A stretch of 64,000 nucleotides of DNA, taken from Arthrobacter sp. Lineage in GTDB: Bacteria > Actinomycetota > Actinomycetes > Actinomycetales > Micrococcaceae. Positions 50,679-58,989 of the stretch are shown in pieces. A program made the translations under genes and the position numbers. Each line of letters starts with the position of its first letter. The stretch's first letter is position 1. The DNA lies in NCBI GenBank assembly GCA_023264815.1, contig JAHFUZ010000018.1, positions 1-64,000 of the forward strand, given 5' to 3'. The notes under the pieces were generated by a model. It was not told the origin of the DNA and ran no database searches. It worked only from the letters and a program-made list of their open reading frames with translations.

Positions 50679-51881
50679 TCAGAGTACCGAGCGGTAGACC
50701 TCAAGGGTGGTTTCGGTGATGGACTCCCAGGAGAAGTGCTCCTCGGCGCGGCGGCGGCCGGCCTGTCCCATGGCGCGCGCCCGCTCAGGATCGGACACCA
50801 CTTCAGTCAGTGCTGCAGCGAACTCGGTGACGAACTTCTCCGGGTCCAGCGGTGTTCCGGTGCCGTCGGTGACCTGCTCCAGGTCCACCAGGAGACCGGT
50901 TTCGCCATGCTGGACAACCTCGGGGATACCACCGGTGGCGCTGGCCACCACGGCCGCGCCGCACGCCATGGCTTCGAGGTTCACAATGCCCAGCGGCTCA
51001 TAGATTGACGGGCATGCGAACGCTGTAGCGTGGCTCAGGACCTGGATGAGTTCGTGCCGCGGAAGCATCCGTTCGATGAGGATGACGCCGGTCCGCTGCT
51101 GCTGCAGCTCCTCGATGAGACGTGCAGTCTCGGCGGCGAGCTCCGGGGTGTCCGCGGCACCCAGGCAGAGCACCAGCTGGACATCGGCGGGCAGCTTCGC
51201 AGCGGCCCGCAGGAGATAGGGAACACCCTTCTGACGCGTGTTGCGGCCGACGAAGACCACACTGGGTTTCTGCGGATCGATGCCGAGCGCCCGTACTGCG
51301 TCTTCGCCTTCGTCGCGCTGCCACAGCTCCACGTCGATGCCGTTGTGCACCACCCTGACCTTGGCGGGATCAACGTCGGGGTAGCTGCGCAGAATGTCCT
51401 GGCGCATGCCCTCCGAGACGGCAATAATTGCGGCTGCGGCCTCGTAGGCGGTCTTTTCCACCCAGGACGAGAGCGCATAACCGCCCCCCAGCTGTTCTGC
51501 CTTCCAGGGCCGGAGCGGCTCAAGGCTGTGTGCGCTGAGCACGTGCGGGATGCCGTGCAGCAGGGACGCGAGGTGACCGGCCATGTTCGCGTACCAGGTA
51601 TGCGAGTGGACAAGGTCTGCCCCTTCGATGTCCGGCACAATGCGCAGATCGACGCCCAGGGTCTGGACGGCGGCGTTGGCTGAACCCAGGTCCTCAGGCA
51701 CGGCATAGGAAGTCACCCCGGCGCCGTGGTAGTCAGCATCGCGGGGCGCCCCGAACGCACGAACCTGCAGGTCAACATGCTTACTAAGCACCCTGCTCAA
51801 CTCGGCCACGTGGACTCCGGCGCCACCGTAAATCTCCGGCGGGAATTCTTTAGTCACAATGTCTATTCGCACGTTACCCAA
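50679..51881 (-). CDS. glgA: Glycogen synthase (GT4 type)
   Basis: 400 residues from TTG 51881, chosen because AAGGA lies 6 bases upstream; GTG 51872 is an alternative. Retaining glycosyltransferase family 4 with two Rossmann domains: [15 protein letters not shown] binds the donor and [19 protein letters not shown] holds the E-x7-E motif. In actinobacteria this enzyme uses ADP-glucose to make glycogen or maltose-1-phosphate (GlgM activity); sequence alone does not separate the two. It is divergent from glgC, which makes ADP-glucose, with a 93-base shared regulatory gap. Confidence 0.93.
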
Positions 51882-51974
51882 GGTAGTCCTTCCGCAGTAT
51901 CTGTTCTAGTGTGAAGGAGTCCGGGCATGCCGGACTGTTTTGGGGAGTTACGAAGGCGTACAGGAGCGACCACT

Positions 51975-53390
51975 ATGCCGTTAAACAAAAAAGTCCTGGC
52001 CATTGTCCTTGCAGGTGGCGAGGGAAACCGGCTCATGCCACTGACGGCAGACCGGGCCAAACCGGCTGTGCCTTTCGCCGGCAGCTACCGCCTCATCGAC
52101 TTTGCGCTGTCCAACCTGGTGAACTCACGCTATTTGCAGATCGTGGTGCTCACGCAATACAAATCCCACAGCCTTGACCGACACATCTCCGAGACATGGC
52201 GGATGTCCACGCAGCTGGGCAACTACATAGCTTCCGTCCCGGCGCAGCAGCGCGTGGGCAAGAGCTGGTTCCTGGGCAGCGCCAACGCCATCTACCAGTC
52301 CCTGAACCTGATCCATGACGCTAACCCCGACATCGTCGTTGTGGTGGGCGCGGACCACGTTTACCGCATGGACTTCGCCCAGATGGTGGCCCAGCACGTG
52401 CAGAGCGGCGCCAAAGCCACTGTGGCCGCCGTCCGCCAGCCGTTGAACATGGCCAATCAGTTCGGCGTGATCGAGGTGGACCAGACCAATCCGCAGAAGA
52501 TTGCCGCGTTTGTGGAGAAGCCCGCCACCACGCCCGGGCTCGCCGCGGATCCCTCCCAGTTCCTTGCCTCCATGGGCAACTACGTGTTTGACGCCGACGC
52601 CCTGGTGGAGGCCCTGCACGTCGACGCCGAACGGCTGGACACCAAGCATGACATGGGCGGGGACATCATCCCCTACTTCGTCAACCAGGGTGAAGCCGGC
52701 GTCTACGATTTCACCCTCAACGACATTCCCGGCTCGACCGAACGCGACCGCACCTACTGGCGCGACGTGGGCACCATCGACTCGTTCTACGAGGCGCACA
52801 TGGACCTGATCTCTCCCGTGCCGATCTTCAATCTGTACAACTCCGAATGGCCCATCTACACGCGGCAGAGCATTTCGCCGCCGGCCAAGTTCGTCCGCGG
52901 CGACGGCAACACGGTGGGCTCGGCCCTGGACTCCATCGTGGCGAGCGGTACCGTCATCTCCGGCGGCATCGTGGAAGGCTCCGTACTCTCCAACGACGTC
53001 TTCGTGGGCAGGTCCAGCCGGGTGCTCGACTCCGTCCTGATGGATAAGGTCAACATCGGCGAGGGTGCCGTGGTCAGGCGCGCCATCATCGACAAGTTCG
53101 TCAACGTTCCGGCAGGCGCCGCGATCGGCCTGGACCCGGAGCTCGACCGTGCCCGCGGCTTCAAGGTCACCGAATCGGGCATCACTGTACTGTCCAAGGG
53201 GCAGGTTGTCCCCGAACCCGACGAAGCCGAGCGCAAGCTTTCGGCCGCCAACCTCAGCGTTGTGCCGGCGGGCGTGAAGGCCGCCACCGAAAAGTGGTCC
53301 GAACTCCGGGAAACAGTAGATAGGGTCGCCGAAGTGCACTCCGCCGTCGTCGGCGCCTCGGGCGCAGGCTCACAGCCCGGCGAAGCCTAG
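51975..53390 (+). CDS. glgC: Glucose-1-phosphate adenylyltransferase
   Basis: 471 residues from ATG 51975 (AGGAG upstream). Makes ADP-glucose, the committed step of bacterial glycogen synthesis. The N-terminal pyrophosphorylase motif is [20 protein letters not shown], followed by [11 protein letters not shown] and [10 protein letters not shown]; the C-terminal third is a left-handed beta helix ([20 protein letters not shown]). An extra tail (about 420-471) is low complexity. Usual length in actinobacteria is about 410, so the tail is an extension. Confidence 0.95.
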
Positions 53391-53399
53391 GGCCCTGCG

Positions 53400-53434
53400 G
53401 GAGCCCGGTACCGCCGACGGTCGGTCCGGGCTCC
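53400..53434 (+). terminator. Hairpin after glgC
   Basis: GGAGCCCGG (53400-53408) and CCGGGCTCC (53426-53434) with an inner ACCG/CGGT pairing. It begins 10 bases after the glgC stop and has no T-run. Confidence 0.55.
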
Positions 53435-53444
53435 GCGAAGCCTG

Positions 53445-53450
53445 TAAAAT
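53445..53450 (+). promoter_or_regulatory. Extended -10 of a leaderless promoter for the zinc-ribbon SDR gene
   Basis: TGTAAAAT contains the hexamer TAAAAT at 53445-53450, ending 7 bases before ATG 53458. It is preceded by TG, the extended -10 form, and no ribosome site exists. Confidence 0.6.
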
Positions 53451-53457
53451 TGGGGCA

Positions 53458-54921
53458 ATGAGCTCCCCCGATCTGTCAGCCGACCTGACGCCTGAGGACA
53501 TCCAGGCCTGCCTCAAGGTCCTGAACTCCATCCACGTCTACGACGAGGATCACCCGGACTATGTTTCGGTGCGCCGAGCCACGGGAAAAATGTTCAAGGC
53601 AGTCAAGCGCCACCGCCGCGTGACCAAGCGCGACCAGATTTCGGAAGCCGACCGCGCGGTCATCGCCCAGACCGCCACCGCGGCGCCGGACCGCATTGAC
53701 GACGAAACGCGCGGCAACAAGCTGGCCACGTCGGCCACGGGCAAAATTGCCGGGCATCTCATCCGGTCCCGCCCCTGCTACATCTGCAAGCAGCACTATA
53801 CGCAGGTGGACGCCTTCTACCACCAGCTCTGCCCGGAGTGCGCTGCCTTCAACCACGGCAAACGTGATGCCCGGACGGACCTCACCGGCCGGCGTGCGCT
53901 GCTCACGGGCGGCCGCGCCAAGATCGGCATGTACATCGCCCTGCGCCTTCTCCGGGACGGCGCCCACACCACCATCACCACCAGGTTCCCCAAGGACGCG
54001 GCCCGCCGTTTCGCGGCCATGGAAGACAGCAGCGAGTGGCTGCACCGGCTCCGGATTGTGGGCATCGACCTGCGTGACCCGTCCCAGGTGATGGCTCTGA
54101 CTGATTCGTTGAACGCCGCGGGTCCGCTGGACATCATCATCAACAACGCGGCCCAGACCGTCCGGCGGTCCGGCAACGCGTACAAACCGCTCGTTGACGC
54201 AGAAGATGAGCCGCTGCCGGCAGAACTGGAGCCGGCCAACGGCGGACCGGAGCTGCTGACGTTCGGCCATGCCCACGACAAGCACCCGCTCGCCCTCGCC
54301 GGCAGCGTCACCGACCATCCCGTGCTGGCAGGTGACGCGATCACCTCGCTGGCCCTGTCCACCGGCTCGGCGTCCCTTGAGCGTATCGCCTCCGGCACCG
54401 CGATTGACGCCGGCGGGCTCGTACCGGACCTGGCCACCATCAACAGCTGGACCCAGGTGGTGGACCAAGTGGATCCGCTGGAGATGCTCGAGGTCCAGCT
54501 CTGCAACGTCACGGCACCGTTCCTGCTGGTCAGCAGGCTCCGTGAGGCGATGAAGCGTTCCACCGCACGCCGGAAGTACATCGTGAATGTCTCTGCCATG
54601 GAAGGCCAGTTTTCCCGCGCCTATAAAGGTCCCGGTCACCCGCACACCAACATGGCCAAGGCCGCGCTGAACATGATGACCCGCACCAGTGCCCAGGAAA
54701 TGCTCGACGCTGACGGCATCCTGATGACCGCAGTGGACACCGGCTGGATCACCGACGAGCGCCCGCACTACACCAAGGTCCGCCTCATGGAGGAGGGATT
54801 CCACGCCCCGCTGGACCTGGTGGACGGCGCGGCCAGGGTTTATGACCCCATCGTGATGGGCGAAGACGGCGAAGACCAGTACGGCGTTTTCCTGAAGGAT
54901 TACAAGCCCAGCCCCTGGTAG
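53458..54921 (+). CDS. Zinc-ribbon SDR-fold protein with non-canonical active site
   Basis: 487 residues. The first 100 residues are mainly helical, basic and unlike known domains. A zinc ribbon follows: Cys107-x2-Cys110 and Cys125-x2-Cys128. The rest is an SDR fold: LLTGGRAKIGMYIALRLL for nucleotide binding and IIINNAAQ as the NNAG-like motif. An unusual insertion of about 110 residues follows before VNVSAMEGQF (Ser present). The position of the catalytic Tyr in YxxxK is Thr (PHTNMAKAALN), so the normal SDR proton donor is missing. It is probably not a typical oxidoreductase. Leaderless start at ATG 53458. Confidence 0.85.
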   Translation: MSSPDLSADLTPEDIQACLKVLNSIHVYDEDHPDYVSVRRATGKMFKAVKRHRRVTKRDQISEADRAVIAQTATAAPDRIDDETRGNKLATSATGKIAGHLIRSRPCYICKQHYTQVDAFYHQLCPECAAFNHGKRDARTDLTGRRALLTGGRAKIGMYIALRLLRDGAHTTITTRFPKDAARRFAAMEDSSEWLHRLRIVGIDLRDPSQVMALTDSLNAAGPLDIIINNAAQTVRRSGNAYKPLVDAEDEPLPAELEPANGGPELLTFGHAHDKHPLALAGSVTDHPVLAGDAITSLALSTGSASLERIASGTAIDAGGLVPDLATINSWTQVVDQVDPLEMLEVQLCNVTAPFLLVSRLREAMKRSTARRKYIVNVSAMEGQFSRAYKGPGHPHTNMAKAALNMMTRTSAQEMLDADGILMTAVDTGWITDERPHYTKVRLMEEGFHAPLDLVDGAARVYDPIVMGEDGEDQYGVFLKDYKPSPW

Positions 54922-55448: not shown

Positions 55449-55481
55449 CGCCTGGCCCAGGCACCCCGCCTAGGCCAGGCG
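55449..55481. terminator. Hairpin between the PPOX-like and transglutaminase genes
   Basis: CGCCTGGCC (55449-55457) and GGCCAGGCG (55473-55481) with a 15-base loop; the right arm overlaps the last codons of the transglutaminase gene. No T-run. Confidence 0.45.
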
Positions 55482-56321
55482 CGTGATTTCCACGCTCACG
55501 GTCAGCGCCGAACCGCCACCACCGGACAGGATGCCCTTCAGCGGCGGCACATCACGGTAGTCCCGGCCCCTGGCCACGGTGACGTGGAAGTCGCCGGCCG
55601 GTTTGTGGTTGGTGGGGTCCCAGCTGCGCCATTCCCCGTCCCAGAACTCCAGCCACGCATGCGACTGGCCGGCCACCGTCTCGCCGATGGCCGCCGTCGA
55701 ACGCGGGTGAAGGTAACCGGAGACGTAACGGGCGGGGATGCCGCAGCTGCGCAGCGCGCCGATGGCCAGGTGCGCGAGGTCCTGGCAGACGCCCTGCCGC
55801 TGGCCCCAGGCTTCCTCCGCATTGGTGGTGACCGCTGTGGAGCCGGACATGTACGTCATCTCGCCGCGCATCCACTCGAAGATGGCCATGGCGGCCTCGT
55901 ACGGGTTTTTACCCTCCACAACGCCCGGAATAATGCCCAGGACTTCGGCCCCCGGACCGCTGAGCTGGGACTGCGGCAGCCAGTCGCTGTGGGCGTTCAG
56001 GACTTCATCTGAAGCCAGCACGTCCCAGCCGACGATGTCGGACTCGGCCGGGACTTTCTCGACGCGGTGCACTTCAACAGTGATGTTGGAGACCACCTCG
56101 AGGTGCTCGTGCGGCATCTGCATGTCGAATGCGGTCACCCGGGTCCCCCAATAATCGCGGTAGGTGCTCACGGCAGCCTGCGACGGCGAGACCTTCAGGA
56201 CCGATTCCAGGACCACCTGCTGGGGATCCGTCAGGGGCGTCATGCGGGCCTCGTTGTAGGACAGCGTGACTCGCTTGTTGTACTTGTAGCCCGTGGTGTG
56301 GATGATACTCAGCCGGGTCAT
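55470..56321 (-). CDS. Transglutaminase-like cysteine protein
   Basis: 283 residues. A bacterial transglutaminase-fold domain with an N-terminal beta domain (RLSIIHTTGYKYNKRVTLSY). The catalytic triad is Cys179 in GVCQDLAHL, His221 in SHAWLEFW and Asp235 in WDPTN. It overlaps the alpha-E gene by 4 bases (ATGA), and both follow the ATP-grasp gene on the same strand. This trio occurs in many bacteria; a role in peptide ligation or modification has been proposed from gene context only. Confidence 0.92.
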   Translation of the reverse strand: MTRLSIIHTTGYKYNKRVTLSYNEARMTPLTDPQQVVLESVLKVSPSQAAVSTYRDYWGTRVTAFDMQMPHEHLEVVSNITVEVHRVEKVPAESDIVGWDVLASDEVLNAHSDWLPQSQLSGPGAEVLGIIPGVVEGKNPYEAAMAIFEWMRGEMTYMSGSTAVTTNAEEAWGQRQGVCQDLAHLAIGALRSCGIPARYVSGYLHPRSTAAIGETVAGQSHAWLEFWDGEWRSWDPTNHKPAGDFHVTVARGRDYRDVPPLKGILSGGGGSALTVSVEITRLA

Positions 56322-57244
56322 GAAACTTCTCCCACCCAGGCCAGCTCGTCCGCCTGATTGAAGTACTTACGGGAAATGGCGTCTGACGCCTGGGCTACGG
56401 CCTTCTGCACGCGCTCCATGTGTTCGGGCAGCTCGGACATCAGATCGTCCGTCCGGTGGAACTCGAGGAAGGTCCGGGCCTGGCCCACAATCCGGCGGGC
56501 ATCGTTGATGAAGCCCACGCGCTGCGCGGAAGGATCCAGTTTGGCGAGGCACTCGTCGGCGTCACGCAGGGCGTAGACGATGGACCGCGGAAACAGCCGG
56601 TCCAGCAGCAGGAATTCGGCGGCGTGCTGGTCCCCGAACGCTGCGCGCCGGGTCCGCAGGAACGACTCGTAGGCGCCAGCACACCGCAGCATGTTCACCC
56701 AGGACATGCCTGCGGACAGGACATCCCGGGTGGAGAGCATCCGTGCGGTCATGTCCGCGCGTTCCAGGGAGCGGCCCAGTACCAGGAACAGCCAGCTTTC
56801 GTCGTGGCTCACCGTGGTGTCAGCCAGGCCGCTGACCATGGCGGTCCGTTCCAGGGTCCAGTTGCAGAAGCGGTAAGTGCCCACCACGTCCTTGCGGTGC
56901 TGGCTCAACCCGTAATACGTGGTGTTGAGGCTCTCCCACAGACCCGAGGACACCGTCTCGCGGGCACGCCGTGCGTTCTCACGGGCAGCACCCAGGGACC
57001 CGGCAATGGAGGTGGCGCTGGTTTTGTCGTACGCCAGGGCGTGCAGGAGCTCAGGCAGCCCGAAGTCCTCGCTCTGCGGACGCGCGCCCATCACGGCGAG
57101 CAGTTCCTGGGCAACGCGGCGGCGTTCGTCCATGGGCAGGTGGTTCAGGCGCTCCAGGTGGACGTCCAGGATGCGTGCGGTGCCGTCGGCCCGCTCCACA
57201 TAGCGTCCGATCCAAAATAGGGACTCAGCAATACGGCTAAGCAT
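56318..57244 (-). CDS. Alpha-E domain-containing protein
   Basis: 308 residues, almost wholly alpha-helical, with the N-terminal signature MLSRIAESLFWIGRYVERAD. GLSQHRKDVVGTYRFCNW and FLRTRRAAFGDQHAAEFLLL are typical of the family. AGGAGG precedes the start at 9 bases. The family has no assigned catalytic activity and always occurs with transglutaminase and circularly permuted ATP-grasp genes, suggesting a complex. Confidence 0.92.
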   Translation of the reverse strand: MLSRIAESLFWIGRYVERADGTARILDVHLERLNHLPMDERRRVAQELLAVMGARPQSEDFGLPELLHALAYDKTSATSIAGSLGAARENARRARETVSSGLWESLNTTYYGLSQHRKDVVGTYRFCNWTLERTAMVSGLADTTVSHDESWLFLVLGRSLERADMTARMLSTRDVLSAGMSWVNMLRCAGAYESFLRTRRAAFGDQHAAEFLLLDRLFPRSIVYALRDADECLAKLDPSAQRVGFINDARRIVGQARTFLEFHRTDDLMSELPEHMERVQKAVAQASDAISRKYFNQADELAWVGEVS

Positions 57245-57319
57245 TCGCGGCGACCTCCTGCGCGTCCAAGATCTGTGGGGTTGCCCCCGTGGTTGATGCT
57301 GCCTGGTCCTGGACCCGGC

Positions 57320-58876
57320 TCACTGCTGCTGCTCCGACTGGCGGTCACGCCAGTTGCTCTCGACCGGCCAGACGGACACCCGCTCGCGGATGTTAATGGT
57401 GGGCCTGGGCAGTGTCTCCACCGGCACCTGTGGCGAACCGGCCAGCACCCAGGTGTCCTTGGAGCCGCCGCCCTGGCTGGAGTTCACAATCAGGGAACCC
57501 TCCTTCAGCGCCACCCGGGTGAGCCCGCCGGGCAGAACCCAGACGTCGTCGCCGTCGTTCACAGCGAAGGGCCGCAGGTCCACGTGCCGGGGGCCGAACT
57601 TGTCCCCGCCCAGGGTGGGCACGGTGGAAAGCTGCAGGACCGGCTGCGCGATCCAGCCCCGGGGGTCGGCGATGACCCGTTGGCGCAGAGCGTCCAGTTC
57701 GTCATGGGACGCGTCAGGGCCGATCACCAGGCCCTTGCCGCCTGAGCCGTCAACAGGTTTCACCACCAGCTCGGACAGGTTGTCCAGGACGTACTCCCGG
57801 GCTTCCTTTTCCTCAAGCCGGTAGGTGTCCACGTTGGCGATGACTGGTTCCTCGCTGAGGTAGTAACGGATGAGGTCCGGAACGTAACTGTAGACGAGTT
57901 TGTCGTCGGCCACACCGTTGCCGACGGCGTTGGCGATGGTGACCCCGCCGGCGCGGGCAGCATTGACCAGGCCAGGGCAGCCCAGCATGGAATCCGAACG
58001 GAACTGGAGCGGGTCCAGGAACTCGTCATCGATGCGTTTGTAGATCACGTCTACGCGCTGCTCACCGGCGGTGGTGCGCATGTACACACGGTTGCCGCGG
58101 CAGATGAGGTCGCGGCCTTCTACGAGCTCCACCCCCATCAGGCCGGCCAGCAGGGTGTGCTCGAAGTAGGCGCTGTTGAAGACGCCCGGGGTCAGGACCA
58201 CTACCGTGGGGTCGTCGACGCCGGCGGGTGCCGTTTTGCGCAGCGCCGAGAGGAGCCGGCGGGGGTATTCCTCCACCGGCCGGATGAGCTGCTGGCCGAA
58301 CGCCTCGGGCAGGCCCTTGGCCATGGCACGGCGGTTCTCCAGGACATAGCTCACGCCGGAAGGAACGCGCACGTTGTCCTCCAGCACGCGGAACGTCCCG
58401 GCAGCGTCGCGGACCACATCGATGCCGGATATGTGCACCCGGACCCCGCCGGCCGGCTCGAAGCCGTGGACCTGGCGGTGGAAGTGTGCGCTGGTGGTGA
58501 CCAGCTGGCGGGGAATCACGCCGTCGGCCACGACGTTCATTTTGTCGTAGACGTCGTTGAGGAAGGCTTCCAGCGCACGGACCCGCTGGGCCACGCCTTT
58601 TTCGAGTACGGTCCACTCGTCGGCGGGAATAACACGCGGCACGATGTCGAGCGGGAAGGGCCGCTCCTCCCCCGCGAAATCAAAGGTCACACCGCGGTCC
58701 AGGAAGGTGCGCGCCATCGAGTCCGCCCGGGCACTGACGTCCGCGAGGGAAAGCTTGCGGAGCGCGTCCGCAACCTCAGAGTACGACTCGCGTGCTTCCT
58801 GGCCGGGGGCGAACATCTCGTCGTAAGCGCCGGTCCGCCCGGCGGCCACGGAGTAATCCTGGAATAGGTCTGACAT
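57320..58876 (-). CDS. Circularly permuted type 2 ATP-grasp protein
   Basis: 518 residues if translation starts at ATG 58876 (MSDLFQDYS), which fits the family; in-frame ATGs at 58921 and 58912 would add up to 15 residues, and the ribosome site is not decisive. ATP-grasp ligase in which the usual domain order is permuted: PFPLDIVPRVIPADEW, RVPSGVSYVLENRRAM and LVVKPVDGSGGKGLVIGPD (nucleotide binding), then QPVLQLSTVPTLG. Such enzymes join a carboxylate to an amine using ATP. It is the first gene of the trio with alpha-E and transglutaminase and is divergent from the yeiH-like gene. Confidence 0.9.
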   Translation of the reverse strand: MSDLFQDYSVAAGRTGAYDEMFAPGQEARESYSEVADALRKLSLADVSARADSMARTFLDRGVTFDFAGEERPFPLDIVPRVIPADEWTVLEKGVAQRVRALEAFLNDVYDKMNVVADGVIPRQLVTTSAHFHRQVHGFEPAGGVRVHISGIDVVRDAAGTFRVLEDNVRVPSGVSYVLENRRAMAKGLPEAFGQQLIRPVEEYPRRLLSALRKTAPAGVDDPTVVVLTPGVFNSAYFEHTLLAGLMGVELVEGRDLICRGNRVYMRTTAGEQRVDVIYKRIDDEFLDPLQFRSDSMLGCPGLVNAARAGGVTIANAVGNGVADDKLVYSYVPDLIRYYLSEEPVIANVDTYRLEEKEAREYVLDNLSELVVKPVDGSGGKGLVIGPDASHDELDALRQRVIADPRGWIAQPVLQLSTVPTLGGDKFGPRHVDLRPFAVNDGDDVWVLPGGLTRVALKEGSLIVNSSQGGGSKDTWVLAGSPQVPVETLPRPTINIRERVSVWPVESNWRDRQSEQQQ

Positions 58877-58989
58877 GTCCTTTAGCCAACCATCTTTTTG
58901 TTTCGAATTCATTACTGCCATCCATTGTGGCGTGTTGCCGGGCCGCCGCCGGTTCGTTGAATCCGCGCGGCATCCGGCAAGGTAGGTGA

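Follow-up and report, generated by a model that had tools for sequence, protein, structure and literature searches.

SDRs form a very large enzyme family whose mechanism is taught as Ser-Tyr-Lys, and one gene in the window (the whole 64,000-nucleotide stretch of Arthrobacter DNA that was analysed) raises the question of what a protein with this fold does when residues of that triad have been replaced. An earlier note had read the gene as an SDR with Thr at the catalytic Tyr position and additional N-terminal parts. Its open reading frame (53458-54921, plus strand, 487 amino acids) is real, and the parts of the gene that concern the SDR core are as follows.

53458..54921, plus strand: whole gene, 487 amino acids, SDR fold with N-terminal helices and a Cys4 domain (open reading frame list, Pfam, AlphaFold2)
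53905..53928, plus strand: TGGRAKIG, dinucleotide-binding turn with Lys replacing the middle Gly (alignment with SDRs of the same genome)
54169..54468, plus strand: insertion after NNAA, residues 238-337, variable apart from a few residues (family alignment)
54505..54507, plus strand: Asn350, the SDR tetrad Asn, kept (31 of 31 family rows; 15 of 20 paralogs)
54595..54597, plus strand: Ala380 at the catalytic Ser position (all 31 family rows have Ala, 19 of the 20 paralogs Ser)
54637..54660, plus strand: HPHTNMAK, start of the active-site helix, with Thr397 at the catalytic Tyr position and Lys401 kept (alignment and motif search)

The fold itself is that of a classical SDR. In the 487-residue protein Pfam recognises adh_short (57.7 bits against a cut-off of 26.6, best over 147-235) and adh_short_C2 (46 bits against 27, best over 337-432). 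The match is split in two halves because about 100 residues are inserted between them, and the large insertion that had been described is indeed present, at about residues 238-337, where it interrupts the Pfam match. A full-length AlphaFold2 model built from a 29-row alignment (pLDDT 80.8, pTM 0.81) matches solved classical SDRs over residues 139-483, with tropinone reductase-I at Z 24.9 and an rmsd of 2.7 over 236 aligned residues. The SDR fold proposed earlier is therefore borne out in prediction, both by this structural match and by adh_short above its cut-off, and fold and motifs together make binding of NAD(P) likely. The modelled helix 395-419 bears Thr397 and Lys401 one turn apart, and in classical SDRs Tyr and Lys are likewise one helix turn apart. 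The gene is present as a single copy in the source genome, the next three matches reaching 29-32% identity over about 90-120 residues.

A search of the same genome found 25 SDR places, and 20 of these were aligned with 31 family members to set the active-site register. These 20 paralogs have the catalytic Ser in 19 cases (Pro in one) and Tyr and Lys in all 20; the Gly of TGxxxGxG and the Pro of the Pro-Gly turn are likewise found in 20 of 20, and the tetrad Asn in 15. The family rows carry Ala380, Thr397, Lys401 and Asn350 without exception (31/31 each). The reading of YxxxK as TNMAK, with Thr for Tyr and Lys kept, is thus upheld, as is the retention of NNAA (N229, N230 and A231, each 31/31). 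Two other readings have to be corrected. The Ser of NVSAMEG, which had been taken for the catalytic one, is Ser379, the residue preceding the catalytic column, and that column holds Ala380 in 31 of 31 rows. The Rossmann motif, reported as kept, is altered, for TGGRAKIG carries Lys155 in all 31 rows where the paralogs have Gly (20/20). In addition, Thr428 stands in 31 of 31 family rows where all 20 paralogs have Pro, in the turn after beta-6. As aligned, then, two of the three triad residues are replaced in the family, not one as the earlier note held.

These substitutions extend to every relative examined. A motif search of 157 family loci, which comprise 128 distinct 250-residue stretches around the active site and leave out 20 paralog loci, returned HPHTNMAK in 143, HPNTNAAK in 10, HPHTNMSK in three and HAHTNMAK in one. 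Ala at 380 and Thr at 397 occur together in 157 of 157, none of the 157 has Tyr at the latter position, and residue 379 is Ser, or Thr once. This recurrence in 128 distinct sequences is neither chance nor sequencing error, and a lone oddity is ruled out with it. In the protein and its close relatives (81 in all), C107, C110, C125, C128, S379, H394, H396, T397 and K401 are each found 81 times, so that Thr397 and the four cysteines are invariant in the homologue alignment that had been proposed as a check. Three weak loci outside the family (L082-L084) lack the active-site motif in the same search. In HMMER alignments to 8hjw and 1sny a gap sets Tyr against His396 and not Thr397, whereas in the other four of the five alignments listed with 1sny, and with 4lvu, Tyr is aligned to Thr397; the two exceptions are read as gap artefacts since Thr397 and Lys401 share one modelled helix. 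With both Ser and Tyr substituted in all 157 loci, the suggestion that the protein does not carry out ordinary dehydrogenase chemistry is strengthened, and a different mechanism is probable.

How far does the family depart from known SDRs? It shares with the classical types (PF00106/PF13561) the Rossmann core, NNAA, the tetrad Asn, the active-site Lys and the fold, and differs from them in having Ala for Ser, Thr for Tyr, Lys for the middle Gly of TGxxxGxG and TG for PG; it also adds the 100-residue insertion and an N-terminal Cys4 and helical domain. The pteridine-reductase model PRK09135, whose members we take to be YxxxK enzymes, reaches E <= 0.001 with 9 of 14 C-terminal halves, and the C-terminal half of the present protein scores 22.5 bits against it, far below the cut-off of 288. 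Divergent SDRs are described with the motif YxxMxxxK (PMC3144213), and the family resembles them in an invariant residue seven positions before Lys (H394-x6-K401), although it has His for Tyr at that position and Thr for Met four positions before Lys. According to the account of SimC7, this SDR ketoreductase is active without the catalytic Tyr and Lys, keeps Ser (Ser-Ile-His), and has been proposed to use substrate-assisted catalysis (PMC5039031). SimC7, TMR and QOR2 are alike in being SDRs without the canonical triad (PMC5039031), and such proteins can therefore be active enzymes. The resemblance is partial: SimC7 retains Ser but has other residues for Tyr and Lys, whereas the present family retains Lys and loses Ser, and proteins of the SimC7/TMR/QOR2 type, as described there, have I/LxxxH for YxxxK where the family has TxxxK. 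VEP1 proteins are also reported as SDRs with a non-canonical active site, their motif being other than that of the family (PMC3144213). New here is thus an SDR variant with Ala for Ser and Thr for Tyr throughout, SDRs without the canonical triad being already known from these accounts (PMC5039031, PMC3144213).

The family is strongly conserved, uncharacterised and seen mainly in Actinomycetota. A scan of one genome per species gave at least 593 stretches encoding relatives, the best 80 of them at 67-95% identity. Profile matches at E <= 1e-60 occur in 26 of 296 sampled Actinomycetota genomes, and a protein search of the organism's own family, the Micrococcaceae, found matches in 79 of 149 sampled genomes; among the genomes listed, which leave out 50 without a match, eight are of the same genus, all with the gene. 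More distant members (37-49% identity) are L097-L101 from other actinobacterial families, L095, carried by a Deinococcus plasmid, and L125, situated at a viral contig's edge. Plasmid records gave a match in four of 72,556 (the same four with a distant query), phage records in none of 50,697 at E <= 1e-5, and defence-system models returned nothing at E <= 0.01 for three proteins. Two annotated records name a family member merely 'SDR family NAD(P)-dependent oxidoreductase', and a literature search covering few subscription journals gave, among the titles and abstract openings listed, none on this family.

Several individual copies were also observed. One genome (G023) of family f5, a group of genomes of 7.8-9.9 Mb that cluster in the tree with two named Streptomyces records, has a second, much diverged copy (L101, 5950-7323; 47-50% identity) with NVTAVEG for NVSAMEG. 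At the viral contig edge (L125, 1303-3067), a leucine-rich-repeat protein and an NADPH-dependent FMN reductase are encoded after the relative; the host may, at a guess, be a cyanobacterium. The copy in genome G584 (C1:1726870-1728310) lies in two frames (residues 8-396 and 379-487) and is frame-broken or misassembled. Copies of 86-87% identity occur in genomes titled Sporosarcina (L017) and Acidobacteria (L016), titles that look wrong because the phylum searches hit the same contig positions as the Actinomycetota search. Searches centred on Sporosarcina and Acidobacteria (12 of 149 and 18 of 198 genomes matching) returned largely the same actinobacterial genomes and added nothing independent.

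Conservation within the core is uneven. Among 11 core regions of our choosing (31 rows), helix 394-412 has the highest mean identity, 0.956, followed by values of 0.931 for the NNA segment (225-237), 0.909 for the cofactor turn (146-166) and 0.907 for beta-6 (421-436); the insertion, at 238-320, is the least conserved with 0.560. Tyr242, Glu382, His394, Thr397, Asp427 and Trp430 are among the residues invariant in all 31 rows, and even the insertion keeps Tyr242, Asp317, Asp324 and Trp331 (31/31 each) and Glu249 (30/31). Tyr389 is Tyr in 24 of the 31 rows and another residue in seven, and because of this variability it is excluded as a family-wide catalyst. Decay of a pseudo-active site would not be expected to give such conservation, which therefore favours an enzyme, or a very specific pocket, over a scaffold.

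Two features precede the SDR core.

53491..53664, plus strand: pair of N-terminal helices spanning residues 12-69, of which the second is basic (AlphaFold2 models)
53776..53841, plus strand: CYIC...CPEC with C107, C110, C125 and C128, probable zinc site (alignments)

Both AlphaFold2 models contain the basic helical N-terminus that had been described, as helices 12-27 and 33-69/70, and the CxxC...CxxC motif recurs as CxxC-x14-CxxC in 81 of 81 close, 21 of 21 diverse and 30 of 30 N-terminal-alignment rows. Modelled alone, the N-terminal 142 residues (pLDDT 85.7) form the two helices, a hairpin at 97-118 and a helix at 126-140, the first strand being followed by one CxxC and the last helix opening with the other; in this predicted arrangement the Cys4 site would be closer to a treble-clef finger than to a ribbon. 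The N-terminal alignment (30 rows) has eight invariant columns, four of which are the cysteines, and the helix region ranks with the more weakly conserved stretches. No PDB fold matched this model at E <= 0.001, the top and non-significant match being a nuclear-receptor DNA-binding domain (E 3.3); the sequences of solved structures gave a single match at E 0.83, and no Pfam family exceeded its cut-off over this part. The binding of nucleic acid or a partner that the earlier note raised here thus gains no positive support.

The genes around the locus give a hint of a different kind. The features upstream of the gene are listed below.

50679..51881, minus strand: glgA (Coryne type), divergent from glgC (TIGR02149, 568.1 bits, cut-off 302.4)
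51927..53390, plus strand: glgC, glucose-1-phosphate adenylyltransferase, conserved upstream neighbour (TIGR02091, 446.0 bits, cut-off 424.9)
53400..53434, plus strand: G+C-rich hairpin with 9-bp arms, lacking a T run, that separates the glgC stop codon from the SDR gene (read and folded)
53445..53450, plus strand: TAAAAT, a -10-like box 7 nt upstream of ATG, leaderless-type promoter (read in the sequence)

A -10 box just upstream of the start codon is the signature of leaderless transcripts in actinobacterial promoters. Of 81 loci, 58 carry a TANNNT box 5-7 nt ahead of an in-frame start codon, whereas 28 slid controls averaged 2.0 and never exceeded 5; outside the Micrococcaceae group the box is found at 38 of 57 loci versus 0-4 in 12 slides. 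A sigma-70 consensus scan upstream of the gene gave no site with both hexamers. The SDR gene is probably expressed from its own leaderless promoter. The hairpin is a possible terminator, and it is not among the calls of a terminator scan.

Linkage to glgC is frequent in two actinobacterial families. Among the best 80 of at least 593 loci, 21 have glgC on the same strand ending 46-175 bp before the matched start, and 59 have no glgC in flanks of up to 5 kb (blastp E <= 1e-15). In 20 further Micrococcaceae genomes, which we chose from the 79 matching to span 60-89% identity, glgC/glgA adjoin the gene in 16 and the link is missing in four. In f5, six of the seven genomes bearing the gene have glgA-glgC at 1.6-7 kb upstream and in the same orientation, the seventh having no link, and a WS/DGAT acyltransferase gene stands between glgC and the family gene in four of the six linked genomes by crude gene calls (gene calls in the other loci being the longest frame with G+C-rich third positions); the WS/DGAT assignment was confirmed for one locus (L103) by PF03007 and TIGR02946. 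Since the f5 proteins do not group with the Micrococcaceae members in the protein tree, which has long branches and open forks, one recent co-transfer is an unlikely source of the link. Elsewhere glgC was not found: at six of six loci of families f4, f6, f7 and f8, within up to 8 kb; in f3 and f21 (three loci), at the four distant actinobacterial L097-L100 as well as L101, and on both the Deinococcus plasmid and the viral contig, at E <= 1e-20; and at three plasmid loci of Streptomyces (two) and Tsukamurella. A simple glgC operon is weakened by the gene's own -10 box, the intervening hairpin and the four unlinked Micrococcaceae genomes. The adjoining glycogen-synthesis genes hint at a role in storage-carbon metabolism, a hint that is weak because the linkage is not seen in the other families examined and the gene seems to have its own promoter.

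The remaining neighbours are diverse. Among 148 proteins of 37 loci no neighbour family is common, the commonest of the first 25 of 129 families being DUF2784 with four members, which probably lie downstream at L036, L054, L061 and L074 (Nocardia/Rhodococcus/Prescottella), judging by position and gene calls. Directly downstream in the window is a pyridoxamine-phosphate-oxidase-like gene (PF12900; 54935-55438, plus strand), a relative of which is found at seven other loci of the best-80 set, adjacent in four, and in none of the 20 further Micrococcaceae genomes at E <= 1e-20. Beyond it, transglutaminase-like, Alpha-E and circularly permuted ATP-grasp genes stand in a row (window 55470-58921, minus strand); the transglutaminase gene is kept on that side in seven of the 20 further Micrococcaceae genomes.

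What, then, might the protein do? The best-supported statement is a structural one, namely that this is an SDR-fold protein, probably binding NADP(H), with a Cys4 domain and with Ser and Tyr replaced in every member seen. As to function, we put at about an even chance that it is an enzyme, soluble and NADP(H)-dependent, that has the SDR fold around a rebuilt active site and delivers protons in a non-canonical way. This reading is drawn from sequence and model, by which the classical core is intact and the residues on the cofactor side, Asn350 and Lys401, are retained. In such an enzyme NADPH would bind via Lys155 and Arg176, and Lys401 would hold the nicotinamide ribose. Hydride would pass to an activated substrate, such as a conjugated C=C, an imine or a quinone-like compound, with the insertion closing over it as a lid, and another invariant residue (candidates are His394, Glu382, Asp427 and Tyr242) or the substrate would supply the proton. 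The Cys4 finger and the basic helices are probably structural, making oligomer or partner contacts.

Such extreme conservation might also mark the ligand site of a sensor, and this speaks against the enzyme reading. The protein would then be a non-catalytic NADP(H) sensor or regulator whose zinc finger and basic helices inform a partner, perhaps a glycogen- or lipid-storage enzyme, of the redox state. The loss of both proton-relay residues, the added Cys4 and basic domain, the glgC/glgA linkage in two families and the WS/DGAT gene in four of six linked f5 genomes are all consistent with such a role. However, the segments on the substrate side show more conservation than a plain scaffold would call for, neither fold nor family searches gave the finger a significant match, and no neighbour family has more than four members among the 148 proteins of the 37 loci (first 25 of 129 families). 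This possibility is accordingly a tentative one, distinctly less probable than catalysis. Its most specific form, a redox-gated regulator of carbon storage in which NADP(H) in a silenced SDR pocket would switch the zinc-finger domain and tune GlgC/GlgA glycogen synthesis and, in the second family, WS/DGAT neutral-lipid synthesis to the NADPH level, is doubtful enough to be regarded as a long shot.

Classical chemistry might also survive if a Tyr from elsewhere occupied the classical position in an ordinary oxidoreductase. Tyr242 is the best candidate, being invariant in 31 of 31 rows and placed just after NNAA at the start of the insertion; the stretch just after NNAA borders the substrate in SDRs, and 2,4-dienoyl-CoA reductase uses a displaced Tyr. 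Yet the catalytic Ser is lost as well, and we consider this unlikely. Least probable is a nucleic-acid-binding protein, suggested earlier, in which the SDR part would be an NADP(H) switch: the basic helix 33-69, the four invariant cysteines and the nuclear-receptor DNA-binding domain as best fold match (non-significant, E 3.3) speak for it, but no PDB match reaches E <= 0.001, no Pfam family exceeds its cut-off and conservation in the helix region is comparatively low.

Ultimately, the family is strongly conserved and lacks both proton-relay residues while their surroundings are frozen, so that its members would have either another proton route or a role as a reader of NADP(H). The glgC neighbourhood offers a first place to seek a phenotype.
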